DNA from: Clostridium sp.
GTDB lineage: Bacteria; Bacillota; Clostridia; Lachnospirales; Lachnospiraceae
Reading direction: 5' to 3'
Length of the DNA stretch: 64,000 nucleotides
Assembly: GCA_023664605.1 (NCBI GenBank)
Contig: JAMPFF010000007.1
Location: forward strand, 27,968-91,967
The notes under the pieces: generated by a model
Seen by the model: only the letters and a program-made list of their open reading frames with translations
Databases searched by the model: none
What the model was told of the DNA's origin: nothing
Shown here: positions 50,916-57,659 of the stretch, in pieces
Layout of the letters: each line of letters begins with the position of its first letter
How positions within the stretch are numbered: the stretch's first letter is position 1
Program-made: the position numbers and the translations under genes

Positions 50916-51845
50916 TTAAGGAGCGGCATTTAGCAGAAACAGCGAAAAACTGCTTCCCTGACCGATTTTAGAGGCTACAGTGATGTAGCCTTTTTCGCAT
51001 TGTAAAATAAGCTGCGCTAAATATAGCCCGAGACCGTTTCCATCCTGCTGTTCCACGTTTTTTCCACGATAAAAGCGTTTAAAGATATTGTTATATTCAT
51101 TTTCAGGAATGCCGACGCCCTCATCGGAAATAGTAATCCTTGTGTAAATATCCAGTCGGGTAATCGTTATTTTAATGCGGCTGTTTTCCGGCGAATATTT
51201 TATGGCGTTTTCCAAGATATTTGACATTGCCTCCGCTGTCCATTTCGGGTTGTGGTAGAGAGAAAAATCCGGAAATTCTTCTACCGACAGACGAATGCTT
51301 TTGGCAGCCGCCTGTGCATAGACGGCTTCAAGCGCGCGGGCAATCGTTTCCTTGACGCCGGTATATTCGGCGTTAAATTGAATGACGCCGTTTTCTAAGC
51401 GGGAAGCTTTTAAAAGGTCTTTCATTAACCAACTCATTTTATCCGCCTGGCTTTTGGTATGCTCTAAAAATTCCCTGCGTTCTTCCTTTGCCAGGGCGTC
51501 ATTTTGGAGAATCTCCATATTCATTACGATATTCGCCAGAGGCGTTTTTAACTGGTGGGAAAGGTCGGAAATTAACTCCGTGACCTGGTCTTTTTCTTTA
51601 ACCGCCTGATTTTCCCGAAAGCGGGCGCTGCTTAAAATACGGCGAAGCTGGCTTGCGACGCGGGATTCCCTTGTTTCATAATATTCCTGTTCGTATGCGC
51701 TTTCCGGGTCGTTTTTTTGAAAACTTTCCAGTATGCTGTCCAGTTTTTTCCATTCCCGTAAAAAATAGAGTGTGCCTGTGATAAGAACGGCAAGACATAG
51801 AAAAAGCGTCAGAGCAAGCAGGATAATAACGCTGTCTTTTGTCAT
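50916..51845 (-). CDS. Sensor histidine kinase
   Basis: Kinase of 309 aa with one N-terminal membrane segment (about 6-29), a short linker without a sensory domain, a DHp helix with SDLSHQLKTPL (His97), and an ATPase domain with NAIKYSP, DEGVGIPE and GNGLGLYLAQ. Start at ATG 51845 behind GGGAGG, overlapping the regulator gene by 4 nt (ATGA). The small input region resembles intramembrane-sensing kinases tied to ABC exporters. Confidence 0.94.
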   Translation of the reverse strand: MTKDSVIILLALTLFLCLAVLITGTLYFLREWKKLDSILESFQKNDPESAYEQEYYETRESRVASQLRRILSSARFRENQAVKEKDQVTELISDLSHQLKTPLANIVMNMEILQNDALAKEERREFLEHTKSQADKMSWLMKDLLKASRLENGVIQFNAEYTGVKETIARALEAVYAQAAAKSIRLSVEEFPDFSLYHNPKWTAEAMSNILENAIKYSPENSRIKITITRLDIYTRITISDEGVGIPENEYNNIFKRFYRGKNVEQQDGNGLGLYLAQLILQCEKGYITVASKIGQGSSFSLFLLNAAP

Positions 51846-52522
51846 GGATTTTCCTCCCATAAATAGCCGATGCCCTGAATGGTACGGATATAGTTTCCGC
51901 CCAGCTTTTTGCGCAGACGGCTGATATTGACGGAAAGCGTGTTTTCTTCCACGAAATTGCCGTCTGCATCCCATATATGCTGTAAAATCTGTTCTTTGAG
52001 AAGCACTTTATTTTTATTTTCCAGAAAATATTGAAGCAGCCTAAACTCTGTTATGCTTAAAACAATTTCCGTATCTTCGTTAAAAGCGCGGAATGAGGCT
52101 GTGTCTACGGCTATTTTCCCGGACGTCAGCATATGCGGCGTTTCCTTGTCGGAAAGTCTGCGCTGCATGATGTTTTGTAATCTGATTTTTAAAACGGAGA
52201 TGGAAAAGGGTTTCGTCATATAGTCGTCCGCGCCGCTTGAAAGCCCCATGATTTCATCGACTTCCATATCCCGTGCGGTCAGCATTAATAACGGAGTCTT
52301 TGATTTTTCTCCAGCCGCTTTGCGTATAGTTTTGCAAAAGTCCATGCCGTCTCCGTCCGGCAGGTTCAAATCGAGTATAACGGCGTCGGGAGCTTCTTTT
52401 TCAAAAAGGGTTAAGCCCTCTTTCAGCGTCCGCGCACACAGCGGTTGATAGCCGTCTTGTTCCAGCGCAAAGGAAATGCCGCGGTTTAGTCCGGCGTCAT
52501 CTTCGATAATTAAGATTTTCAT
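51842..52522 (-). CDS. OmpR-family response regulator
   Basis: Regulator of 226 aa: receiver domain with acidic pocket EDD (8-10), phosphoacceptor Asp51 in ILDLNLPDGDG, Lys in TKPF, and a C-terminal winged helix with SRLRKKLGGNYIRTIQGIGY. Start at ATG 52522 (MKILIIEDD) with AAAGGACG. It is only 19 nt downstream of the Abi gene on the same strand, so the two may be co-transcribed. The nearby MacB-type exporter is a likely target. Confidence 0.95.
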   Translation of the reverse strand: MKILIIEDDAGLNRGISFALEQDGYQPLCARTLKEGLTLFEKEAPDAVILDLNLPDGDGMDFCKTIRKAAGEKSKTPLLMLTARDMEVDEIMGLSSGADDYMTKPFSISVLKIRLQNIMQRRLSDKETPHMLTSGKIAVDTASFRAFNEDTEIVLSITEFRLLQYFLENKNKVLLKEQILQHIWDADGNFVEENTLSVNISRLRKKLGGNYIRTIQGIGYLWEENP

Positions 52523-52541
52523 GGGAGCGTCCTTTCGGGGG

Positions 52542-53510
52542 TTAGAGTTTGCCGTTGTTGTCATTTTTATTTTTAATTTCCATCCAGTTTTCAGGGAAAC
52601 CCATGTATTTGTATAATTGATTTCTCTGGATTCTTTTGGTATCGTCAAGTAATTTTTGTATTAGGTCATTTAATTCTGATACAAAAGAATCAAAATCGTT
52701 TTCGTTTAATAAATATTTTAAGACAATCACTACAGCGAATAAATCGTTTTTGCCCTTTTTATATTGTTCATTTACCTTTGGGATTCCCAGAGCGGCATGA
52801 ATATAGGTATTGTCTATGGTTCCTTTTCGGTATTTGTAATCGAATAACCTTTCGTTGTGGGCGCATACGTTTCTTACACGGGCTAATAAATCCAGCATTT
52901 GCACCAGCATACTTTCATGTACATAGTCAAATTCTTTGCTGACATTGGACTGGATGCTTTGTGGCAAAAAGCTGTACATTTTTGATACGGTACCTAAAGT
53001 CAGCGCTTTCATCATAACCCATAAGGGAATATTGCCGTGTTTCTTTTTCTGATGTATGATATAGGGGTAATTTTTAGGGTCGGTTGTAATTTTTGTAAGT
53101 CTTGTAATCAGTTCATATATATCATCCTGATTTTGGGAATTATAATTATATTTGGTCGCATTAAGATAGTGCTGCTGGTTTTCGCCATAGACTGCACAGA
53201 AAGAATAGGAGATTAGCGATTTAACGTGCTTTTCAATTTTTAATATGTATTGTAAAAAAAGCGCCCTTAAAGAGTCGTCAAAGATATATAGTGTATAGAT
53301 ATCCTGAATGGATACATGTACTTTGTAATTGCCATCCTTTCCTTTAAAAGGACCTTTATATCCCGATATTAAGGCAAAATAGCTGTGTTCTTTCAGTAAT
53401 TTAATTGCATAATCCCTGTTATTTATTTCCAGTTTCTTTTCTTTGCTTAGTTTTTCAATTAACTGGTCGTAAGTCATAAAAGGCTTGTCCTGTTTTAATT
53501 CATTTTCCAT
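52542..53510 (-). CDS. Abi_2/AbiF-like abortive-infection protein with HEPN motif
   Basis: Protein of 322 aa of the AbiD/AbiF family (PF07751). Visible hallmarks are NNRDYAIKLLKEHSYFALISGYK (30-52), the middle helix IPLWVMMKALTLGTVSKMY (161-179) and the HEPN nuclease motif RNVCAH (R213-H218), so it should be an RNase toxin acting in phage defence by growth arrest. RBS GGAG six bases before ATG. A compact RNA gene with its own promoter and terminator lies directly upstream on the same strand, a probable RNA partner. It was inserted just ahead of a two-component system. Confidence 0.92.
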   Translation of the reverse strand: MENELKQDKPFMTYDQLIEKLSKEKKLEINNRDYAIKLLKEHSYFALISGYKGPFKGKDGNYKVHVSIQDIYTLYIFDDSLRALFLQYILKIEKHVKSLISYSFCAVYGENQQHYLNATKYNYNSQNQDDIYELITRLTKITTDPKNYPYIIHQKKKHGNIPLWVMMKALTLGTVSKMYSFLPQSIQSNVSKEFDYVHESMLVQMLDLLARVRNVCAHNERLFDYKYRKGTIDNTYIHAALGIPKVNEQYKKGKNDLFAVVIVLKYLLNENDFDSFVSELNDLIQKLLDDTKRIQRNQLYKYMGFPENWMEIKNKNDNNGKL

Positions 53511-53542
53511 AACAATTCTCCATTCTTATCTGAGTAGCATAC

Positions 53543-53607
53543 AAAAAGGCTCCCGCAGGAGCCCTTTTTTGGTCGCAGGCCTCACAGGTATCTGCAACAC
53601 GATCACT
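53543..53607 (-). ncRNA. Candidate structured small RNA upstream of the Abi gene
   Basis: Predicted transcript of about 65 nt from near 53607 down to 53543. It contains a 7-bp stem GTTGCAG (53598-53592) / CTGCGAC (53578-53572) with one U-G pair, enclosing a small CCT-GTG-AGG hairpin, then an A-rich linker and a strong terminator GGCTCC-TGCG-GGAGCC plus TTTTT. The 3' end lies 33 nt before the abi ATG. AbiF-type HEPN proteins have been reported with adjacent structured RNAs; this fits that arrangement. Not tested here. Confidence 0.75.
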
Positions 53608-53613
53608 GATAAT

Positions 53614-53642
53614 ATTATACATAACAGGCGTAATCATGTCAA
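53614..53642 (-). promoter_or_regulatory. Consensus promoter of the Abi-associated RNA
   Basis: TTGACA (53642-53637), 17-nt spacer, TATAAT (53619-53614): a perfect match to the sigma-A consensus, rare in the window. Transcription would start near an A at 53607. The abi gene itself would be read only by passing the RNA terminator. Confidence 0.85.
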
Positions 53643-53735
53643 CATATATTTTTCCTGCTATTGCGTAATTTTAATCAGCTTTTTATTTATATGCGTTATC
53701 GTTTGTAAGTATACAAAAATTCTTCAGAAAAGTCA

Positions 53736-53771
53736 TTGACAACTGATATGTACTGTTATATACTGTTTATT
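53736..53771 (+). promoter_or_regulatory. Promoter and tandem-repeat operator of the GntR-ABC operon
   Basis: TTGACA (53736-53741), 17-nt spacer, TATACT (53759-53764). Overlapping spacer and -10 are three 10-bp direct repeats each beginning ACTG (53742, 53752, 53762: ACTGATATGT, ACTGTTATAT, ACTGTTTATT). Their placement suggests repression by the GntR protein encoded 44 nt downstream. Confidence 0.75.
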
Positions 53772-53814
53772 GCGAGGAACAAATTCGCATATTAAGAAAG
53801 GCATATAGGTAATA

Positions 53815-54186
53815 ATGAAAATCATAATAAGCAATTCATCGATGGAGCCAATTTATGAACAAATCATAGGACAGATTAAGGCTATGATTATGGATGGGAG
53901 ACTGCAGGAGGAAACTATGCTGCCTTCGGTCAGGTCTTTATCCAAAGATTTAAAAATCAGCGCACTGACGGTAAAGAAAGCCTACGACTGCCTCGAAGAG
54001 GACGGATTTATCGTTACGGTGCATGGAAAGGGAAGCTTTGTTGCGCAGGGGAACCAGAACTTATTGCAGGAGGAAAAGCGCAGGGAAGTAGAAAACAAAC
54101 TGGAGTCTGCCGTGCAGGAGGGAAGAAGGTGCGGCATGAAAGATGAGGAAATCAGGGAATTATTTGATTTAATCATTAATGAGTAG
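53815..54186 (+). CDS. GntR-family regulator (YtrA subfamily)
   Basis: Regulator of 123 aa: an N-terminal winged helix (PIYEQIIGQIKAMIMDGRLQ, then LPSVRSLSKDLKISALTVKK) and a short helical tail instead of a ligand-binding domain, as in YtrA. Such repressors control ABC exporters encoded directly downstream and respond to cell-wall-active compounds. ATG 53815 follows AGAAAGG by 13 nt. First gene of a three-gene operon with its own promoter. Confidence 0.93.
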   Translation: MKIIISNSSMEPIYEQIIGQIKAMIMDGRLQEETMLPSVRSLSKDLKISALTVKKAYDCLEEDGFIVTVHGKGSFVAQGNQNLLQEEKRREVENKLESAVQEGRRCGMKDEEIRELFDLIINE

Positions 54187-54225
54187 TGTGAAAAAGGCAT
54201 GATTTTAGAAGGAGTGAATCGACAT

Positions 54226-55077
54226 ATGCTGCTGAAAATGGAAAATGTACAAAAAAGTTACGGAGATTTTAAGCTGAATTGTTCGATGCAGGTGGACGAG
54301 GGATATATAACAGGTGTTATCGGAGCGAACGGAGCCGGAAAAAGTACGACGTTTAAGGCGATTCTTGGATTGATTCAGACAGACGGCGGAACGGTAGAAA
54401 TACTGGGAAAAGATGGGAAAAACCTAACGGGAGCGGACAGACAGCAGATAGGAACGGTTTTGTCGGAAAGCACTTTTAACGGCGTGTTGACAATCAAGGA
54501 CGCAGCTGTGGTTATGAAAGCAATGTATGCAAACTTTCATAAGGAAGATTTTTTTCAGAAGTGCGAAAAGTACGGACTGCCTTTACAAAAGCCGATAAAA
54601 GAGTTTTCCACCGGTATGCAGGCAAAATTCAAACTTTTGCTGGCAATGAGTTACGATGCGAAACTTTTAATACTGGACGAACCGACCGCCGGACTCGACG
54701 CGGTTGTCAGAAGCGAACTGTTGGACGAAATGCGGGAGTATATGAGCGCGGGCGACAGGGCGATTTTAGTCAGTTCCCATATTTCATCCGATTTGGAGGG
54801 ACTGTGCGACGATTTGTATTTTTTACAGGACGGCAAAGTATTATTTCATGAGGATATGGATGTGATTTTATCCGATTACGCCGTTTTGAAAGTGAATGAG
54901 GAACAGTATCGGGCACTGGATAAAAGCCATATCAGCTATCGGAAAAAAGAGGCGTTCGGCTATGAACTTTTAACAAAGCAAAAACAGTTTTATCGGGATA
55001 ATTATCCGGACATTGTCATGGAGAAAGGGAACATTGACGACGTGATGTTAATCGTGACGAAAGGGGAAAAGATATGA
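54226..55077 (+). CDS. ABC transporter ATP-binding protein (YtrB/BcrA-like)
   Basis: ATPase of 283 aa. Walker A GANGAGKST, a degenerate signature FSTGMQAKF in place of LSGGQ, Walker B LLILDEPTAGLD, and SSHISSDLE. Start at ATG 54226 (MLLKMENVQKSYGDF) preceded by GAAGGAG; in-frame GTG 54214 and ATG 54199 are alternatives. Overlaps the permease gene by 4 nt (ATGA). Probably exports a drug or an envelope intermediate under GntR control. Confidence 0.93.
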   Translation: MLLKMENVQKSYGDFKLNCSMQVDEGYITGVIGANGAGKSTTFKAILGLIQTDGGTVEILGKDGKNLTGADRQQIGTVLSESTFNGVLTIKDAAVVMKAMYANFHKEDFFQKCEKYGLPLQKPIKEFSTGMQAKFKLLLAMSYDAKLLILDEPTAGLDAVVRSELLDEMREYMSAGDRAILVSSHISSDLEGLCDDLYFLQDGKVLFHEDMDVILSDYAVLKVNEEQYRALDKSHISYRKKEAFGYELLTKQKQFYRDNYPDIVMEKGNIDDVMLIVTKGEKI

Positions 55078-55967: not shown

Positions 55968-57566
55968 TTATTTATTATTATCAGAATAATATAATGATAA
56001 ATCTATATACATAACACAGCGTTTAAAATGTGTGGATTTCATAGCTGCGTTTCTATCAAGATGAAATAAATTTTGACATACTTCCCGTATTTGTGTAAGG
56101 GAAAAAGAGTCTATACTTTTTAATAATAGACCGGCTTTTTTATTAATATCATCAACTTTTTTCATTTCATCCAGTAAGGCATCATAATCAGATATTGAGG
56201 GCAGGGTTTTAATTTGTTTTTGAATATTGGAAGGAATTAGTTTTTCCTTTGTATTATGTAATGTGGCATAGTTTTCCAGTTTTTCATTTGCGCTGATTGG
56301 AACAGAAGCATTTTTCATATATTTATGAACCGGAAGTAAACGGGTAGATGAAATGGATTTAAAACGGGAAAGGCACATTTCATCTGCGTCAAAGTGTTTA
56401 TTGTCAAAAAGAATATCTTCAAAAATCATGTCATCGGATAATAATCCGTATCCAAATTTATTTAAAATATTTTCTTTATACCCAATGGCAATAGCAAGAG
56501 GTTTATTTTTAAAATTTATGTCATCTAAAGCATCAATACCCAAAATGAGGGCTTCAGCATCATTTTGGCTGATACTTTGGTCCACGATTGTTTTAACAAA
56601 CATTTTGGTTTCGCGTATTCTCACAGGGGAGATACCTGGTGTAATTCTATTTAGGATATCGTATACAAGAGAGAAATTATCTGTTTGAATTTCTGTAATA
56701 GGAATTTCTAATCCTTTCTTTGTTGTTATAGTACGTCTGATTTCTATTAAATTTTTTTCGTGTTTTTTATAACTAATAAATACAAAATGTTCTTCAATAT
56801 TTTTTAGTTCTTTATAAGTAAGGCATGATAAAAAATCAGTTATGATTTTTTGAATATTTTCATCGGTAAAGGAATAGCCAAGGAAAACGATAGGAGATTC
56901 TGCAAATAGGGTCAGCATTTTAGCAATAATTAGTTTTCTCGTATCAGCAAAGTGTTCATAATCATTTTCAGTTATAATAATTGAATTTGCGTCTGTAGCG
57001 CTGCCATGTATTTTATAAATTTCTGCAATATTATAGCTGTCAGCGGAAAAAAGTTCATTTTGGTGAACAAAAACTTTAAAATCATTAGCAAAGACTTCTG
57101 TTTCAAGGAATAAGTCAAAATTAGTGGTTATAACAGCAGAAATTTTATTTTTCAATGCCTTTAATTTAATTAATTCGTCTGCAGTTTTTGCTGATTTATA
57201 CAAAGCCATATCTTTAAAGTATTGTGCAAGAAACATCTTATAAGGGGAAATGCCGCGTTTTACCCATGCAGGATTTTTAACCCGTCCGAGTTTTATTTTT
57301 CTGTCAAAAAATGCTGCGTTGAATTCATCTTCAATAATAGAGGCTATTTTGGTATTAATTTCAAATTGTGAGAGATTTTGTCTGGTGAACTGGTCTTTAT
57401 ATTTTTGCAGTTGATAAGCATCATTTCCGGTTTTATGATAGGATAAATCGAGTAGTTCTTCCCAATCAGGATATTTGTATAAATATCTTTTAGAAATCCC
57501 TGAACCGATAAATAATACCGGCATGCGTCTTTTTTCTACAATTTTTTCTAAGACAGAAATATACAT
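55968..57566 (-). CDS. SIR2-like NADase defence protein
   Basis: Protein of 532 aa. SIR2 motifs in order: FIGSGIS (19-25), TTNFD (147-151), IHGSA (186-190), FLGYSFTDENI (228-238). The C-terminal 250 residues are helical with no recognised domain. SIR2 domains of this kind deplete NAD+ during phage infection. Start at ATG 57566 (MYISVLEKIVEKRRM) with AGGAGG. It stands alone, so it is either a single-gene system or acts with the neighbouring possible RNA. Lower GC than pgi suggests acquisition. Confidence 0.88.
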   Translation of the reverse strand: MYISVLEKIVEKRRMPVLFIGSGISKRYLYKYPDWEELLDLSYHKTGNDAYQLQKYKDQFTRQNLSQFEINTKIASIIEDEFNAAFFDRKIKLGRVKNPAWVKRGISPYKMFLAQYFKDMALYKSAKTADELIKLKALKNKISAVITTNFDLFLETEVFANDFKVFVHQNELFSADSYNIAEIYKIHGSATDANSIIITENDYEHFADTRKLIIAKMLTLFAESPIVFLGYSFTDENIQKIITDFLSCLTYKELKNIEEHFVFISYKKHEKNLIEIRRTITTKKGLEIPITEIQTDNFSLVYDILNRITPGISPVRIRETKMFVKTIVDQSISQNDAEALILGIDALDDINFKNKPLAIAIGYKENILNKFGYGLLSDDMIFEDILFDNKHFDADEMCLSRFKSISSTRLLPVHKYMKNASVPISANEKLENYATLHNTKEKLIPSNIQKQIKTLPSISDYDALLDEMKKVDDINKKAGLLLKSIDSFSLTQIREVCQNLFHLDRNAAMKSTHFKRCVMYIDLSLYYSDNNK

Positions 57567-57630
57567 AATGCCTCCTATTGATAAAATAATTGAGTAGTTT
57601 CGCAAAACAGATAATGAATAGATGATACAG

Positions 57631-57659
57631 AGTATAACATGCGTATAATAAAAATGCAA
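57631..57659 (-). promoter_or_regulatory. Putative promoter of the SIR2 gene
   Basis: On the minus strand TTGCAT (57659-57654), 17-nt spacer, TATACT (57636-57631). The -35 is weak. Confidence 0.5.

Follow-up and report, generated by a model that had tools for sequence, protein, structure and literature searches.

A short structured RNA and the abi gene that follows it on the minus strand of a Clostridium sp. contig probably form a module of the AbiF or type III toxin-antitoxin kind, in which the RNA neutralises a HEPN ribonuclease. RNAs of the same class also occur without the gene, some of them in the tRNA arrays of phages. In the window, i.e. the whole stretch of 64,000 nucleotides that was analysed (contig JAMPFF010000007.1, positions 27,968 to 91,967), the parts of the module are the following:

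53614 to 53642, minus strand: sigma-70-type promoter of the RNA gene, TTGACA-N17-TATAAT, consensus match 12/12.
53571 to 53608, minus strand: class A RNA core, CAGTGATCGTGTTGCAGATACCTGTGAGGCCTGCGACC, 38 nt, assigned by sequence, fold and covariance model.
53543 to 53570, minus strand: GC-rich intrinsic terminator between RNA and abi, GGGCTCCTGCGGGAGCC hairpin plus T-run, its place conserved in alignment A1.
53517 to 53521, minus strand: putative ribosome binding site GGAGA ahead of the abi ATG, read from the sequence.
52542 to 53510, minus strand: abi gene encoding a 322-aa HEPN protein of the Abi_2 or AbiD-AbiF family, the toxin candidate (Pfam, PADLOC, PHROG, 8vz6).
52857 to 52874, minus strand: HEPN RNase motif R213-N-V-C-A-H218 (RNVCAH), which fits the pattern R(N/H/D)xxxH and in which R, N, C, A and H are invariant in alignment A3.

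The protein had been predicted to be an AbiF-type HEPN protein, and the profile searches support this. It matches Pfam Abi_2 (PF07751) at 3.6e-46 and 158.2 bits, against a gathering score of 25.6, PADLOC AbiD at 1.7e-64 (216 bits) and PHROG 2158, "abortive infection resistance protein", at 9e-73. The sole convincing solved relative by sequence is the "Abi family protein" chain of 8vz6 (phmmer E 3e-7, residues 2-225). The motif RN.CAH is present in every aligned class A protein. Among the matches listed, the identity to homologues from C. difficile phages is 27-28%. A protein scan of viral_contigs and genome_contigs, which reaches close relatives only, gave no match.

By sequence, the locus has the layout of a type III system, with the RNA gene 5' of the toxin, an intrinsic terminator between them and one promoter. 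The promoter given in the original prediction proved correct to the base, and direct reading confirmed the terminator followed after 33 nt by the abi ATG (53510) and the Abi_2 frame with its RNVCAH motif. The 7-bp stem that had been proposed to enclose a mini-hairpin is also there. The core is composed of the unpaired leader (C)AGTGATCGT, helix 1 (GTTGCAG/CTGCGAC), a 5' bulge ATA and the mini-hairpin CCTGTGAGG. The gap between the −10 element and the core is 5 nt; the transcript is predicted to start near 53607 and to end at the terminator, with a length of about 65 nt. The hairpin at 53548-53563 was reported by the terminator scan solely as a plus-strand site. Type III antitoxins usually consist of tandem repeats; in contrast, the window RNA is a single copy, since the covariance model R1, which gives the window core 60.6 bits (E 2e-15; its training set includes this sequence), found no second credible match across the window.

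The RNA together with its terminator folds with a z value of −3.71 against shuffled sequences. The 37-nt core by itself folds modestly (z −1.63; 15 of 200 shuffles fold equally well), and promoters matching at least 9/12 positions are about equally common in the region (8) and in shuffles (6.4). Both points would suit an ordinary abortive-infection gene preceded by an unrelated terminator hairpin, the RNA being incidental, and the case for an RNA gene made by the window sequence alone is moderate. It is the comparison with relatives, not window statistics, that lifts the RNA gene above chance. The covariation counts contradict the incidental reading, the promoter position is conserved and the partnership extends through the clade, so that this explanation is extremely improbable.

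Among 145 relatives searched, a homologue of the protein was found in 45 genomes at E<=0.001. We inspected 26 class A loci, at 40-67% identity to the query; in three of them (L007, L015 and L044) the gene is broken or cut. The RNA stands upstream in every one of the 26, with an AGTGAT-like leader, the helix, the small loop and a terminator-like hairpin. The model R1, built from 16 distinct cores, gave 87 matches (66 distinct), and across the 66 distinct sequences the pairing of helix 1 holds in 99.6% of cells. Double changes occur at six of its seven pairs in the R1-fitted alignment, and the covariation score is 0.533 compared with 0.259 (sd 0.013) for shuffles and at most 0.182 for slid versions; the model itself guided this alignment, and the shuffle controls are inflated by relatedness among the sequences. 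In the MAFFT alignment A2 of 16 sequences, the score is 0.385 against 0.207 (sd 0.024), with slid versions at 0.158 or less, and the pairs with double changes number three, no more than in many shuffles. Helix 1 is in this way kept with covariation in relatives. The mini-hairpin is weaker, being paired in 83.8% of cells with little covariation.

The promoter is conserved as well. A match of at least 9/12 ending 3-12 nt before the core was found in 42 of the 45 relatives with an intact Abi_2, and in 41 of those 42 the −10 element ends 5-6 nt before the core; an equally good promoter score is reached by 2.8% of random windows. The claim of a self-contained structured RNA gene with its own promoter and terminator is supported by this conserved layout. 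An RCATATAAT-like element, possibly a second promoter or a part of the cassette, was noted in relatives at 57-104 nt ahead of the core; counted at 70-140 nt ahead of it, the element is present in 16 of the 55 loci with intact or partial Abi_2, compared with 32 of 2490 random 79-nt windows.

The RNA had been suggested to act as an antitoxin or a guide-like partner. The guide variant, in which the RNA would lead Abi_2 to target RNAs in the manner of Cas13, draws on the view that AbiF proteins are ancestors of Cas13 (PMC12165695, PMC12737573). A Cas13-type guide has a variable spacer and usually an array; what was found is an unvarying element some 38 nt long, present once in the window. No array was seen, 86 of the 87 R1 matches are the full-length element with no variable stretch, and leader, loop and stem are fixed or covarying. 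Among the 29 distinct RNAs with an intact Abi_2, the leader (0.73) and loop (0.75) are more alike than the stem strands (0.66 and 0.60), which is the pattern of a protein ligand; the comparison shows that the conserved letters of the RNA lie in leader and loop. The guide reading was dropped because the RNA lacks a variable part, and we regard it as very unlikely. The antitoxin part of the suggestion is likely, judged by the likeness of the module to RCd22-AbiFCd (PMC12373285).

Next to the relatives, we examined an even, order-level sample of 392 genomes, with a protein cut-off of E<=6.8e-53 that was chosen after the list had been viewed. Of its 32 proteins, 29 have the RNA upstream and one (G310) downstream, and two (G327 and G139) have another hairpin. 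The pairing had been expected to show in the 150 nt upstream of the homologues, and the exceptions to it come down to this one moved RNA and these two loci. In G310 (L151:2142-2179), the RNA stands 3' of abi and has a promoter and a terminator of its own, a score of 25 bits and an altered loop; in its toxin, C replaces R following the HEPN motif (RNVCAHNEC). In the class-wide sample, R1 matches at E<=0.001 were found in 13 of 391 genomes. In the genome G439, class A toxin genes number four, and each adjoins its own RNA; an internal stop interrupts one of the four.

A different hairpin, class B, lies upstream of another Abi_2 clade:

L023, L024, L025, L026, L028, L045, L046, L154 and L157, upstream of Abi_2: class B-type hairpin, CTCCGGTGTCCTTCGGGCCCGGGG or like it.

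Six loci were scanned with Rfam. Five gave no match on this hairpin at E<=1; in L026, the one match was sub-gathering and lay nearby on the opposite strand. In a protein tree of 64 rows, the five RNA labels need 6 changes compared with 20.2 when shuffled; the labels predate the discovery of the G310 RNA, and the G310 row was entered as unknown. Class A forms one group apart from that row, class B forms one group with modest support (71/91), and the RF03085-type rows, several of them labelled by eye, group together with one unlabelled row. As far as the tree can tell, the RNA class follows the protein clade. A second, differently built partner RNA that tracks its own protein clade makes the evolution and specificity of the RNA-protein contact testable.

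The RNA was then followed in places lacking the toxin. We used 83 R1 places, 36 from the relatives (E<=1.1e-5) and 47 from the order sample (E<=1e-4; all of its 48 except G383:C38), and sought Abi_2 within 1.5 kb downstream of the RNA by tblastn with 20 class A proteins at E<=1e-3. An intact Abi_2 was found at 45 places, a partial one at 10 and none at 28, some of the last being weak and perhaps chance matches (G013 is apparently inside a coding sequence); in the order subset the numbers are 26, 5 and 16 of 47. Several places without Abi_2 keep the first abi codons, and one has merely 57 nt of downstream sequence. Among the 38-mer cores (shorter or longer ones were left out), all seven helix pairs are kept in 34/34 with intact, 8/8 with partial and 24/26 with no Abi_2, and promoters of at least 9/12 precede 42/45, 10/10 and 14/28 places, respectively. 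In three genomes (L101:2094-2131, L102:2052-2089 and L104:2081-2118), the RNA and a terminator lie 17-25 nt past a transporter-like gene, presumably of the MATE type by our reading; at these loci no promoter match and no Abi_2 were found, and 36 of the 38 positions are invariant across the three. Conversely, no intact class A toxin lacking both the RNA and another hairpin was seen among the inspected loci. That the RNA outlives the toxin, and that an intact toxin was never seen without an RNA, fits the expectation for an antitoxin, an asymmetry which depends on the reach of the searches to divergent partners.

In terms of sequence, these comparisons show a conserved, paired and promoter-preceded RNA unit which is partnered with this protein clade, varies in its place relative to the gene and occurs without it. 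The RNA could instead act only in cis, as a leader or attenuator whose conditional termination controls abi transcription, and have no action on the protein. It does lie in the 5' region ahead of a terminator at nearly all loci, and RCd22 is reported to lower abiF expression in cis too (PMC12373285). Against this stand the G310 unit downstream of abi with its own signals, the persistence of helix-intact RNAs where Abi_2 is lacking and the lone copies in phage tRNA arrays (see below), and a leader function without any other is unlikely. The change of place in one locus and the existence of lone copies lead us to infer that the RNA would act in trans, as a separate molecule and not solely as the leader of the gene. 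The RNA might also activate or mature the RNase instead of inhibiting it, in which case the lone phage copies could be triggers sensed by the system. This is quite unlikely, as the RNAs are kept beside dead toxins and in phages, and the relatives for which tests are reported are inhibited by their RNAs (PMC12373285; PbAbiF via PMC12737573).

A module of this kind has already been published. According to PMC12373285, AbiFCd-RCd22 of the Clostridioides difficile phage phi027 was shown by experiments to consist of a toxin that loses its toxicity upon R202/H207 mutation and an RNA that neutralises it in trans via direct binding. That system resembles ours in its Abi_2 HEPN toxin with RNxCAH, its SigA promoter, RNA and terminator and the read-through into abiF. 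The differences are that RCd22 contains two abiF motifs of the RF03085 type, whereas the window RNA has one copy that RF03085 does not recognise, and that AbiFCd-RCd22 sits in a prophage lysis module, whereas the window system is a cassette between chromosomal genes. In PbAbiF-AbiFr (PDB 8vz6; Zilberzwige-Tal et al., Cell 2025), the RNA partner is reported to block the HEPN RNase (PMC12737573, PMC12804078, PMC12373285); the protein is homologous but distant in sequence. Covariance models of diverse AbiF RNAs were made in the PbAbiF study (PMC12804078) and may already include class A. ToxIN, a type III toxin-antitoxin system, shares with our module the combination of RNA antitoxin and RNase toxin and, if the lone phage copies are such, the existence of phage-borne antitoxin mimics, the pseudo-ToxI of phage PhiTE serving for escape (PMC3475682). 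It differs in its toxin family and repeat RNA (PMC12373285), and the lone class A RNAs sit in phage tRNA arrays.

From these parallels, we propose that the strong promoter would give a short RNA, mostly ended at the terminator, and occasional read-through would give the abi mRNA; this arrangement of promoter and terminator is why we expect the RNA to be in excess, as in the original prediction. The RNA, folded into the 7-bp helix with its 5' bulge and small loop, would bind an Abi_2 dimer and block the HEPN site R213/H218, as suggested by PbAbiF-AbiFr and AbiFCd-RCd22. When the balance is tipped, e.g. by phage infection, free Abi_2 would cut RNA and growth would stop.

The class A RNA is, by its sequence and build, an RNA class of its own, separate from the abiF RNA of Rfam. 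RF03085 gave no match on the window at gathering, none at E<=10 on 53400-53820 and none at E<=10, with stricter filters, on the source genome; the window RNA stays below the 37-bit membership threshold. In the reverse direction, R1 matched none of the loci holding RF03085 hits, and of 34 loci scanned solely L151 was matched. A permissive Rfam search around the RNA gave candidates that were all far below gathering and were rejected, the best being the terminator-driven Atu_C8 (23.4 bits vs 50). Both RNAs are short hairpins adjoining Abi_2 genes, with a 6-7-bp outer stem that encloses a small inner hairpin and bulges asymmetrically, and both are found alone in phages, but they differ in the strand that bears the long bulge: in RF03085 it is the 3' strand, past the inner hairpin, and in class A the 5' strand. 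In our own reading of the alignments, the small inner hairpin bears YU..GA letters in both, and a distant common origin is possible because of this shared feature.

Pattern scans of IMG/VR for the class A RNA yielded 18 loci. Abi_2 follows the RNA in 6 of them and is lacking in 10; the other 2, L160 and L170, fold differently and were rejected as false positives. Pfam Abi_2 was absent from all 10 lone-RNA viral records, which may be fragments, and present in 4 of the 6 records with Abi_2 that served as controls. A tRNA array holds five of the ten lone RNAs, on contigs of 11.7 to 170 kb, and phage genes are present in the two of these contigs whose neighbours were scanned:

L165:2472-2540, L168:5226-5294, L169:4092-4160, L171:5598-5666 and L159:202-270, in records without Abi_2: class A RNA and one further hairpin, in the slot between tRNA-Met and tRNA-Arg.

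These five represent two sequences, one with the helix GTTGTGG/CTACAAC and the other with GTTATGG/CCATAAC; a compensatory pair and a single change set the two apart. Between tRNA-Ala and tRNA-Asp, the same arrays have another non-tRNA slot, 72-81 nt long (L165:2946-3017 and L171:5104-5184), in which no class A letters were found and the letters differ between the two phage types. An identical lone RNA with the helix rewritten to GATATAG/CTATATC occurs in two genomes of one genus (L131:7627-7664 and L130:2608-2645); the G153 copy is inside a prophage that has genes for integrase, terminase and portal, and a class A abi is present in the congener G099. A match to Pfam RdRP (PF05183) is encoded as well in the L131 prophage, close to its integrase, terminase and portal genes. 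The 13-nt loop of the tRNA-array and prophage RNAs recurs letter for letter next to an intact Abi_2, and between RNAs of the same loop the stems agree at 5-10 of 14 positions. The lone viral RNAs L163 and L093 are one loop letter off their nearest relatives, with stems agreeing at 14 and 10 of 14 positions, and in L092 loop and stem are both close to the nearest.

Our tentative reading, to which we give slightly less weight than to its opposite, is that class A is an AbiF-partner family outside Rfam and that free-standing AbiF antitoxin RNAs of phages, some of them set into tRNA arrays like a further tRNA, are decoys that disarm the host AbiF, the loop that would contact the protein being kept and the stem rewritten. 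Since this decoy reading covers both class A and RF03085, lone phage hits of "abiF RNA" would often be anti-defence elements. The pseudo-ToxI of PhiTE acting against ToxIN is a precedent for it (PMC3475682). Among the literature matches listed, no proposal of a decoy role for AbiF RNAs was noticed in titles and abstract openings, which is no proof of novelty. If the phage copies are decoys, the same 38 nucleotides would be a counter-defence marker in large phages, and part of the purpose of phage tRNA arrays would get a concrete test. The lone phage copies are to be taken as computational leads.

The RF03085 core pattern was found at 89 viral loci, of which 80 were examined for Abi_2 within 1.8 kb downstream, with positive controls that matched. 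One locus has Abi_2, 67 have none and 12 are too short to tell. In an outer-stem test (at least 5/6 pairs in a fixed register), 58 of the 80 loci pass and 22 fail; the 58 comprise 1 with Abi_2, 51 with none and 6 too short. Abi_2 was not found in 31 of 32 whole records, the exception being the locus with Abi_2 (L213, L217 and L226 fail the stem test). Ten of the 58 loci lie within 200 nt of a same-strand tRNA compared with 1.63 expected, three of the ten being near copies, and most lone RF03085 copies are outside tRNA arrays. In the isolated Aeromonas phage PT2, an RF03085 match of 44.4 bits lies between structural genes and away from tRNAs, and no Abi_2 was found in the 41-kb record. Cyanophage S-CREM1 is reported to have an RF03085-type RNA, with no mechanism given (PMC9964418). 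RF03085 letters found by blastn among the tRNAs of the Bacillus Nitunavirus phages Grass and SBSphiJ5 (30/36 nt at 90%) were not counted because the Rfam model gives no call at E<=0.5. Among the matches listed, plasmid and phage blastn searches with the RNA region hit only short stretches, on the terminator or by chance, and those with the phage tRNA-RNA region gave tRNA-part or low-score matches.

The bacterial unit itself appears to have been inserted as a whole:

52546 to 53713, no strand: inserted cassette of promoter, RNA, terminator and abi, with no counterpart at the same site in G034.

The flanks in G034 are 91-93% identical to window positions 51001-52545 and 53714-55000, and about 54 nt stand between them instead of the 1.17-kb RNA-abi unit, a difference indicating that the cassette moves. 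From the end of abi it is 19 nt to the ATG that we assign to a two-component response-regulator gene (window 52520-52544, minus strand). The native upstream stretch of this regulator is present in G034 and missing from the window, and for this reason the RNA promoter may now serve the regulator, kinase and ABC operon too. A further gene with a possible role in defence lies some 2.5 kb upstream of abi (window 55968-57659, minus strand); it encodes a SIR2_2 domain protein that matches PDC-S25, a candidate defence family of PADLOC, at 3e-111.
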